Positions 33,366-35,901 of a DNA stretch of 64,000 bases are shown one piece after another. The notes beneath the pieces were generated by a model that worked only from the letters and a program-made list of their open reading frames with translations, was not told where the DNA came from and made no database searches. The stretch comes from Pirellula sp. (GTDB lineage Bacteria; Planctomycetota; Planctomycetia; Pirellulales; PNKZ01), in assembly GCA_013822735.1 (NCBI GenBank), contig PNKZ01000003.1, positions 62,001 through 126,000 on the forward strand, given 5' to 3'. The first letter of the stretch is position 1, and each line of letters opens with the position of its first letter. The translations under genes and the position numbers were made by a program.

Positions 33366-33959
33366 TTATTGCGGTTCGCGCGGCAGGCGGCGCGGGAACG
33401 GCGGCTCTTCCGAAGGGGGCATTTCCTCTTCAAATTCGAGCGACCAATGTTCGCGGTCTTCTTGGTTCGCGTAGTAGCGAAGCCAAACTTCGGGATCGCC
33501 CGAGGCGTCGGAGCAGTCCCAATGAAGATACGATTGGGCCGAGTCGATCTTCTTTTCCGGCGACGGCAGAATGTCGCGATAGACGAGGCAGTAAAGTTGC
33601 CGGTCGGTCAGGTGATCCGTGAAGTCGAGCACGATCCGCTTGTCGTAAAGCTTCTGTACGACGTCCCACAGCGCGTCGTGCAATTGTTCGTCATTGAGCG
33701 TCTCGGGGCTCGGCAGCGCCAGCGGCGGATCGAACCATTGGGCGATCGGCAGTACGGGGGCATGTTCCCAAGCGAGCATGCTTTCCAGGTACTCGTTTTC
33801 GACCTCGGTCGGCACTTCGCCCGAATCGATGCGCGTGATCGCGTCGTCGAAGTAGGGCTCCAAGGCGTTGCGCAATTCCGCGTTCCGCAGAAGGGCGTCG
33901 AGGTCGTGCGAGGGGGTCGCGCCGAAGTCTGTCATGGTCATCGAGGGGAGCTGTTTCAC
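33366..33959 (-). CDS. Conserved hypothetical protein, function unknown
   Basis: A 197-residue acidic soluble protein with no signal or membrane segment. Notable stretches are EVENEYLESMLAWEHAPVLP near residue 55, then KRIVLDFTDHLTDRQLYCLV. The Trp/His/Asp-rich SYLHWDCSDASGDPEVWLRY and an acidic-proline C-terminus follow. I do not recognise a named domain. The composition and conserved-looking aromatic residues suggest a real gene, and it lies on the same strand as, and just upstream of, the sulfatase gene. Met7 or Met9 could be the start instead of Met1. Confidence 0.6.
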   Translation of the reverse strand: MKQLPSMTMTDFGATPSHDLDALLRNAELRNALEPYFDDAITRIDSGEVPTEVENEYLESMLAWEHAPVLPIAQWFDPPLALPSPETLNDEQLHDALWDVVQKLYDKRIVLDFTDHLTDRQLYCLVYRDILPSPEKKIDSAQSYLHWDCSDASGDPEVWLRYYANQEDREHWSLEFEEEMPPSEEPPFPRRLPREPQ

Positions 33960-34254: not shown

Positions 34255-34710
34255 CTATGATCCCGACGCCTGATTCTTCTCTTGCTGCATGATTTTCTCG
34301 ATGCGGCGCGCGTGCCGGCCGCCGTCAAACGGCGTCGTCAACCAGATCTCGACCATCCGATGAATGAGTTTCTCGCCGAGGAGATCGGCCGACAGGCAGA
34401 GGACGTTCAAGTCGTTGTGCCGGCGGCTCATTTCGGCCGTGAGATCGTCGTGGCACGGGGCGGCGCGCACGCCTGCATACTTGTTGGCGGCGATCGCCAT
34501 GCCGATGCCGGTGCCGCAAATGAGGATGCCGCGGTCGATGGCGCCGCTGCTCACTTGCGACGCCACGGCGCCGGCGATATCCGGATAGTCGATCGCCTCG
34601 CAATCGGCGGGACCGGCGTCGACCCCTTCGTGCCCGAGTTTTTGAAGTTGCTCGAGAATGTGCTTCTTGATTTCGAAGCCGCGATGGTCGCAACCGACTG
34701 CAATTTTCAT
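34255..34710 (-). CDS. rpiB: Ribose-5-phosphate isomerase B
   Basis: A 151-residue RpiB/LacAB-type isomerase that interconverts ribose-5-phosphate and ribulose-5-phosphate in the pentose phosphate pathway. The N-terminal phosphate and substrate site is KIAVGCDHRGFEIKK, the catalytic Cys65 is in GILICGTGIGMAIAANK, and the HNDLNVLCLSADLLG block is conserved. It lies 57 bp downstream of the YrdC-phosphatase fusion gene on the same strand. The same three functions are neighbours in Bacillus (ywlC, ywlE, ywlF), so this is a conserved block with two genes fused. Confidence 0.94.
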   Translation of the reverse strand: MKIAVGCDHRGFEIKKHILEQLQKLGHEGVDAGPADCEAIDYPDIAGAVASQVSSGAIDRGILICGTGIGMAIAANKYAGVRAAPCHDDLTAEMSRRHNDLNVLCLSADLLGEKLIHRMVEIWLTTPFDGGRHARRIEKIMQQEKNQASGS

Positions 34711-34767: not shown

Positions 34768-35901
34768 CTATGCCGAACCGGAGCCTAAAAGTTCATCCAC
34801 CCAACGTTCCAATTCGCCGCCGATTTGCGTCGCGCAGCGGCGATATGCTTCGATCGGTCCGCCGATCGGGTCGGCTACGTCGCCGCCGTTGCCGCAGAGC
34901 AACTTGACGCGCGGCGCCGCATCAGGCCATTCGGCGACGATCGCGTGGCGATGCGAGCGCGTCATCGTAATCAGGAGATCGGCGTTGCGCACCAGAGCGT
35001 CGGTGAGGGGTTGGCTTTCATGGCTCCGAAGATCCAATTCGTGCTCCATCATCACGGCATGCGCTTCGGTCGCCGCCCGGCTTCCCATCATCGCCGCAAT
35101 TCCCGCCGACATGACGAGAAAGCCGCGGTCTTCCAACTCGTCGAGCGTGCAGCCGAGCCGAGCCGCCAAGCATTTACGAAACAGCGCCTCGGCCATCGGA
35201 CTGCGGCAGGTGTTGCCGGTGCAGACGAACAGCACCATAGCGCTCGCGAGCCGCTTCAGCGTTTGTAACGAAACGACGCCGCTACGAACCACGTCGAATC
35301 CGGCGCCATTTAAATGAACGGCGCTCGATGGTTGGCCGAATCGGCTCGGTCCGTCGTCGATAATCAGTTGCACACCGTCGCCGTGCCGCTGAATGACTTC
35401 CGCGGCGGTAACCGCGTGCGTCGACTCTCCGCCCCCCGCGCCGACCATCACGATCGGCCCCGCCAGCAAGCGAAGCACGTCTTGAATAATGGGATGGGCA
35501 GGCACGCGCATCGCCAGTCGCCCTTCGCGGGAAACAGCCTGCTGCACCTTGGCGGGAAGCTGGCGCAACAGGCCGTCGGGATGATGATCGTCGACGATCA
35601 GCGTCACCGGGCCGGGCCAGCAGCGGCGGGCCAATCTGCGGCCCAGCACGCTCATGTTGGGGACATAATCGAGCGAATCGTCGGCGCTTTTCACGGCCAA
35701 AGTCAGCGGCATCTTCGCGTCGATGCCGGCCATCTGACGCAGCCGCAGGACGGCCTTCTCCTGCAAACCGCCGGCCGCCAGCACGTAAACCGTCTCGGTC
35801 GGAAACGCCACGATGCAGCCTTCGGCGAGCGCCTGAACCGCTAGGTGCACGACGTCGCGCGTGTCTTCAGTATTTCGCAGGTCGATGACGCGAGGAGGCA
35901 T
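34768..35901 (-). CDS. Fusion: degenerate YrdC/Sua5 domain + YwlE-like low-molecular-weight phosphatase
   Basis: A 377-residue fusion. Residues 10-210 are a YrdC/Sua5 (threonylcarbamoyl-AMP synthase) domain with FPTETVYVL and WPGPVTLIV. However, the KxR motif is replaced near AGIDAKMPLTLAV, and the SAN motif region reads VMVGAGGGEST. Residues about 220-375 are a low-molecular-weight phosphatase with P-loop VCTGNTCRSPMAEALF (Cys-x5-Arg) and a DPIGG acid loop. A threonine inside the P-loop (CTGNTCR) and the DPxGG form match the protein-arginine phosphatase YwlE; classical tyrosine phosphatases have Ile (CLGNICR) there. Arginine-phosphatase activity is therefore inferred, and tRNA t6A synthesis by the first domain is doubtful. 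Confidence 0.85.
   Translation of the reverse strand: MPPRVIDLRNTEDTRDVVHLAVQALAEGCIVAFPTETVYVLAAGGLQEKAVLRLRQMAGIDAKMPLTLAVKSADDSLDYVPNMSVLGRRLARRCWPGPVTLIVDDHHPDGLLRQLPAKVQQAVSREGRLAMRVPAHPIIQDVLRLLAGPIVMVGAGGGESTHAVTAAEVIQRHGDGVQLIIDDGPSRFGQPSSAVHLNGAGFDVVRSGVVSLQTLKRLASAMVLFVCTGNTCRSPMAEALFRKCLAARLGCTLDELEDRGFLVMSAGIAAMMGSRAATEAHAVMMEHELDLRSHESQPLTDALVRNADLLITMTRSHRHAIVAEWPDAAPRVKLLCGNGGDVADPIGGPIEAYRRCATQIGGELERWVDELLGSGSA

Follow-up and report, generated by a model that had tools for sequence, protein, structure and literature searches.

A putative protein-arginine phosphatase fused to a TsaC-like domain, predicted to be a pseudoenzyme in Pirellula, in Planctomycetota and Omnitrophota

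TsaC/Sua5 enzymes are defined by the catalytic tetrad KxR...SxN (PMC9654439, PMC10321239). In the phosphatases YwlE and PtpB, a threonine of the P-loop selects phosphoarginine (pArg) over phosphotyrosine, while tyrosine phosphatases carry isoleucine at this position (PMC8001253). These two fields have met in Bacillus, where TsaD is a client of McsB and YwlE whose stability depends on Arg282 (PMC7546277). Protein-arginine phosphorylation is usually treated as a Gram-positive quality control system, and McsA and McsB have also been reported in Chlamydia (PMC11708050). The phosphatase and TsaC folds are thus already known, as are McsB homologues outside the Gram-positives, at least in Chlamydia.

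Here, we analysed a window of 64,000 nucleotides from a Pirellula sp. contig (PNKZ01000003.1), in which the two folds are found within a single gene. The relevant features are as follows.

34768..35901, minus strand: fused gene, predicted pseudo-TsaC (Sua5/YrdC-like) plus YwlE-type phosphatase, 377 aa in one uninterrupted frame
35245..35898, minus strand: TsaC/Sua5-like domain, aa 2-219 (Pfam, AlphaFold2 superposition, alignment)
34771..35241, minus strand: YwlE-type low-molecular-weight phosphatase domain, aa 221-377 (Pfam, structure matches)
35203..35223, minus strand: codons of the P-loop CTGNTCR, aa 227-233, with Thr231 at the specificity position
34255..34710, minus strand: rpiB (ribose-5-phosphate isomerase B), 57 bp downstream of the fused gene

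The original prediction of a YwlE-type phosphatase fused to a YrdC/Sua5 domain was confirmed by the open reading frame, by Pfam matches to PF01300 Sua5_yciO_yrdC (aa 24-208, E 2e-31) and PF01451 LMWPc (aa 223-367, E 2e-26), and by the fold matches of an AlphaFold2 model. This model, for which 54 homologues were used as input, is confident over the full length of the protein (mean pLDDT 95.4, pTM 0.91). Residues 2-219 show the Sua5/TsaC fold (Z 27.9, 2.0 Å to P. abyssi Sua5, 6f89) and residues 221-377 the YwlE fold (Z 25.8, 1.3 Å to 4kk4, 35% identity). In the comparison of the phosphatase half with YwlE and other low-molecular-weight phosphatase (LMW-PTP) structures, YwlE was the best fold match, and the tyrosine phosphatases ranked below it, yet with Z >21, as expected for the same fold family. 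Since all seven genomes of the same family and dozens of other lineages hold the fusion, it is not a sequencing accident.

The phosphatase half combines the LMW-PTP fold with a C(X)5R(S/T) P-loop of the sequence VCTGNTCRSPMAEALF, in which the catalytic loop spans C227-TGNTC-R233 (CTGNTCRS). The acid loop is DPIGG with D344 as the acid, so both loops read as first described. The Asp, Pro and GG of the acid loop are retained, with Ile in place of the B. subtilis YwlE Phe; a Phe at this position, as in DPFGG, was found in 13 of 81 relatives. The Thr required by the pArg rule at position 5 of the P-loop is present. Among solved structures, the top matches were T. tengcongensis LMW-PTP (4egs) and B. 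subtilis YwlE (1zgg, 4kk3), followed by Wzb and other tyrosine phosphatases. The genome encodes two other members of the LMW phosphatase family; because their loops differ (CVENSNRSQ, which is arsenate-reductase-like, and CTGNYYRSR), the fused protein is the only YwlE-like protein of this genome. These features suggest that the phosphatase half probably prefers pArg and is a putative protein-arginine phosphatase.

The genome (6.9 Mb, 99% complete) was also searched for the partners of such a phosphatase. One McsB is encoded on contig C1, scoring 476 bits against a cut-off of 385 with the NCBIfam protein arginine kinase equivalog. Its top PDB matches are bacterial McsB structures, and its R(D/N)xxRA motif is RNIERA, compared with RDVRRA in the McsB of known structure. 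Directly upstream of mcsB lies a gene for McsA with its Cys pairs, which matches the NCBIfam model under the cut-off. The N-domain of ClpC contains two GTEH motifs (YIGTEHVLLGL and YVGTEHILLGL), the motifs in which the two pArg-docking glutamates of B. subtilis ClpC, presumably E32 and E106, are situated; as such motifs are common in ClpC, this evidence is weak. Taken together, a complete McsA/McsB/ClpC set is encoded in the same genome. The lack of an McsB homologue, named in the original prediction as the finding that would speak against it, does not apply here, because McsB is encoded beside McsA. The mcsA-mcsB pair (L002:5442-11088) is located near coaD-like and trpE-like genes and, unlike in Bacillus, clpC lies on another contig (C4).

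The distribution of these genes was determined in 294 Planctomycetota genomes of at least 90% completeness. McsB is present in 288 of them and the CTGNTCR codon pattern in 175. When 109 CTGNTCR ORFs of this phylum were read, 82 proved to be fused to a Sua5-like domain and 27 to be stand-alone phosphatases, so some lineages can do without the N domain. In Omnitrophota, a full-length fusion was found in 99 of 145 genomes and McsB in 143. The fusion is therefore an established protein type and not a local oddity. However, McsB is nearly universal in both phyla, so that its occurrence alongside the fusion is of little statistical value, and no correlation can be computed. The pArg system that had been proposed is supported as to its YwlE-like half and its McsA/McsB/ClpC partners. 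The fused copy turned out to be no peculiarity; it is the usual form in both phyla. Several near-complete Planctomycetota genomes (G066, G079, G115, G161, G100, G120, G140, G169 and G196; families f37, f58 and f63) contain McsB and lack any gene of the LMW phosphatase family. In these genomes the kinase has no recognisable eraser, so an eraser is not strictly required.

The gene order around the fusion is conserved as well. In Planctomycetota, rpiB is on the same strand in 85 of the 109 CTGNTCR loci and directly downstream in 75; in Omnitrophota it adjoins the fusion at each of the 30 loci. Two genes downstream of the fusion in the window, a 197-aa ORF (33366-33959, minus strand) gave no Pfam or NCBIfam match. 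In seven Omnitrophota genomes (G308, G358, G360, G366, G387, G418 and G436), the TsaC-like and YwlE-like genes are adjacent and separate, which represents the unfused state. Neither the downstream rpiB nor the wide spread of the fusion was mentioned in the original prediction, and the same holds for the tetrad loss and the purifying selection on the dead half described below.

The P-loop invariance in 80 contig-derived relatives was not counted as evidence, since FVCTGNTC was a search pattern. A Pfam-based survey of 36 genomes without CTGNTCR revealed the variants CSGNTCR, CAGNTCR, CTGNSCR, CKGNSCR, CSANRCR and CT/CAGNTDR in fused proteins, most of which keep Thr or Ser as the selective residue. 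Two fusions of family f46 (L256 and L257) have the P-loop CTGNTDR or CAGNTDR, with Asp replacing the second Cys, together with an apparently intact TsaC tetrad. The Omnitrophota fusions (L264-L291) mostly contain Ser instead of Thr (CTGNSCRSV), and nearly all of their genomes encode McsB. The P-loop Thr, put forward originally as the marker of pArg specificity, is thus present and remains strong evidence, but it is not exclusive. It is this Ser, shared with arsenate reductases, that lends something to a rival identity of the phosphatase half, either a plain tyrosine phosphatase or an arsenate reductase, along with the fold and P-loop common to the LMW-PTP family, the NCBIfam matches to Wzb-like and ArsC models (all far under cut-off) and the acid-loop Ile. 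Nevertheless, we regard this identity as unlikely, given the Thr at the selective position, the top sequence and structure matches to YwlE and a close relative, the McsB, McsA and ClpC genes in the genome, and the occurrence of the tyrosine-phosphatase Ile at this position in just one of the fusions inspected.

In the TsaC half, the PTETVY and WPGP motifs are retained. However, KxR is replaced by AGI at aa 58-60 and SxN by GAG at aa 154-156, so that all four tetrad residues are gone. The NCBIfam TsaC equivalog scores the fused protein at 110.8, under its cut-off of 123.2. At the same time, the genome encodes a separate, stand-alone 348-aa Sua5 in which the KGRP and PSAN motifs are intact. Judged by these residues, the TsaC half of the fused protein is catalytically dead. 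The tetrad was then scored as lost when three or all four residues were missing, and three ORFs with a non-Sua5 extension were left out of both the counts and the tree. Among 83 Planctomycetota fusions (82 and that of the window), the tetrad is intact in 35, lost in 39 and partial in 9. Every one of the 39 tetrad-lost fusions is found in a genome with a further PF01300 gene: 35 of these genomes have at least two PF01300 matches, and the other four (G124, G214, G254 and G258) have a single match at a site other than the fusion. In contrast, 19 of the 35 intact fusions come from genomes with one PF01300 match. Coordinates show directly that this match is the fusion in G004, and the same was seen for four further fusions (G016, G046, G061 and G074); we infer that it is the fusion itself, and so apparently the only copy, in all 19.

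On the best tree of the phosphatase half, the tetrad label changes 8 times; counting well-supported branches only, a minimum of 4 independent changes remains. Within a supported clade that includes 12 intact fusions, only the window protein has a lost tetrad. In paired independent contrasts between tetrad loss and a separate Sua5, the informative pairs all point in the same direction, though they are too few for significance.

For the relatives, a bifunctional enzyme, with an active threonylcarbamoyl-AMP (TC-AMP) synthase and a phosphatase in one chain, is plausible in view of the 35 Planctomycetota fusions with KxR...SxN, 19 of them in single-PF01300 genomes, and of the full tetrad in 27 of 28 aligned Omnitrophota fusions. 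For the window protein, the same reading is highly improbable: all four residues are absent here and throughout its family, the equivalog score is under the cut-off, and an intact Sua5 is available in the genome. As its Sua5/YrdC half appears dead, the fused protein would not be a bifunctional t6A/phosphatase enzyme. A bifunctional window protein was rejected on account of the missing tetrad and the separate Sua5.

In the family of the window's genome, all seven genomes (four genera) contain the fusion with a lost tetrad and keep a separate Sua5. Within this family, dN/dS is 0.11-0.21 for the dead N half and 0.09-0.20 for the phosphatase C half, calculated for the window gene against its nearest relatives, with which it shares 69-85% protein identity, as well as for pairs among those relatives; these values are rough, as dS is high and near saturation in most pairs. 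In the 39 tetrad-less fusions, G28, P34, Y39, R93, W95-P98 and G208 are kept in 85-100%, while K58, R60, S154 and N156 are missing from most. The mean identities of the N and C halves are 27% and 46% in the tetrad-less fusions, compared with 35% and 40% in the intact ones. With a dN/dS like that of the phosphatase half, the dead half evolves under purifying selection. It therefore has the marks of a retained pseudoenzyme, and we regard the TsaC half as a putative pseudoenzyme under selection. The faster divergence of the N half in tetrad-less lineages, and the stand-alone YwlE-type genes of the phylum, would also fit a passive relic, left after displacement by Sua5 and retained merely through its linkage to a needed phosphatase. 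This explanation is improbable, since the dN/dS of the dead half is near that of the phosphatase half, and the frame and the fold residues listed above, including the WPGP motif, persist in most of the 39 tetrad-less proteins across several independent losses. A neutral relic was disfavoured by the dN/dS within the window's own genus and family.

Combined, these results make it likely that the fused gene encodes the pArg phosphatase, or 'eraser', of the McsA/McsB/ClpC system, with the TsaC half as a structural or regulatory pseudoenzyme maintained by selection. In the proposed scenario, a tsaC-ywlE-rpiB gene row would be ancestral, and tsaC and ywlE would have merged into one ORF. In many fusion lineages, the TsaC half would keep the residues for making threonylcarbamoyl-AMP for the tRNA modification t6A, often as the only TsaC of the genome. 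In the window's family, a separate Sua5 presumably assumed this task, and the fused TsaC half then would have lost its four catalytic residues. Displacement by Sua5 followed by decay, repeated across lineages, seems the simplest reading. McsB would tag proteins with pArg for ClpC, and the fused protein would strip the tag. The pseudo-TsaC, folded and packed against the phosphatase, may stabilise it or may bind a ligand or a protein partner; most likely, the present role of the dead domain is structural or regulatory. It may also steer the phosphatase to clients in the t6A machinery such as TsaD. A partner in this pathway is attractive because TsaD of Bacillus is a client of McsB and YwlE and because the intact relatives join both activities. 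A targeting or ligand-sensing domain that physically couples pArg erasure to the t6A machinery is thus suggested tentatively, with the odds rather against it. In Bacillus, the McsB/YwlE pair governs the stability of TsaD, the user of the TsaC product (PMC7546277); if the suggestion proved true, pArg erasure and the t6A pathway would be tied together in one chain in Planctomycetota and Omnitrophota.

In the open-access literature, to which the search was confined, we found no paper that treats Sua5 and YwlE, or ywlC and ywlE, together, and none on a fusion of TsaC with YwlE, on a pseudoenzyme version of it or on pArg in Planctomycetota or Omnitrophota. The survey of TsaC/Sua5 proteins (PMC10321239) mentions neither a phosphatase nor planctomycetes. 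With the kinase in nearly every sampled genome of the two phyla, the 'Gram-positive' arginine-phosphate system looks like standard equipment of Planctomycetota. The fusion links two normally separate cell systems, putative pArg erasure and tRNA modification, and provides a separate argument from genomes that the pArg-t6A link of Bacillus deserves serious attention. It raises the testable question of whether pArg erasure responds to, or acts on, the t6A machinery. The tetrad-less fusions are natural pseudoenzymes with known catalytic relatives, and these pseudoenzymes risk being misannotated as TC-AMP synthases. The Ser-loop fusions of Omnitrophota are a natural experiment on the strictness of the Thr rule.

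In comparison with B. subtilis YwlE and S. aureus PtpB, the window protein shares the LMW-PTP fold, the CTGNTCRS loop with its specificity Thr, the DPxGG motif and about 35% domain identity, as well as the McsA/McsB/ClpC partners encoded in its genome. It differs in the TsaC-like N domain, the acid-loop Ile instead of Phe and the planctomycete host. With the TC-AMP synthases TsaC/Sua5 (YrdC), it has the fold of the N domain and the PTETVY and WPGP motifs in common, but it lacks KxR...SxN, and its C-terminal partner is a phosphatase instead of a SUA5 domain. The gene row of Bacillus, which we take to be ywlC ... ywlE-ywlF(rpiB), has the identical order of tsaC, ywlE-type and rpiB genes, the first two being merged in the genome studied here. 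In T. tengcongensis, the YwlE-like domain of the LMW-PTP 4egs was deposited under the name RpiB; going by that name, it may represent a joining to RpiB, on the opposite side, within the same gene row. HypF, TobZ and TsaN (8ide) likewise use a TsaC-like domain as a module of a larger enzyme; however, in these proteins the module is catalytic, its partner is a Kae1/TsaD-type domain, and no phosphatase is present.
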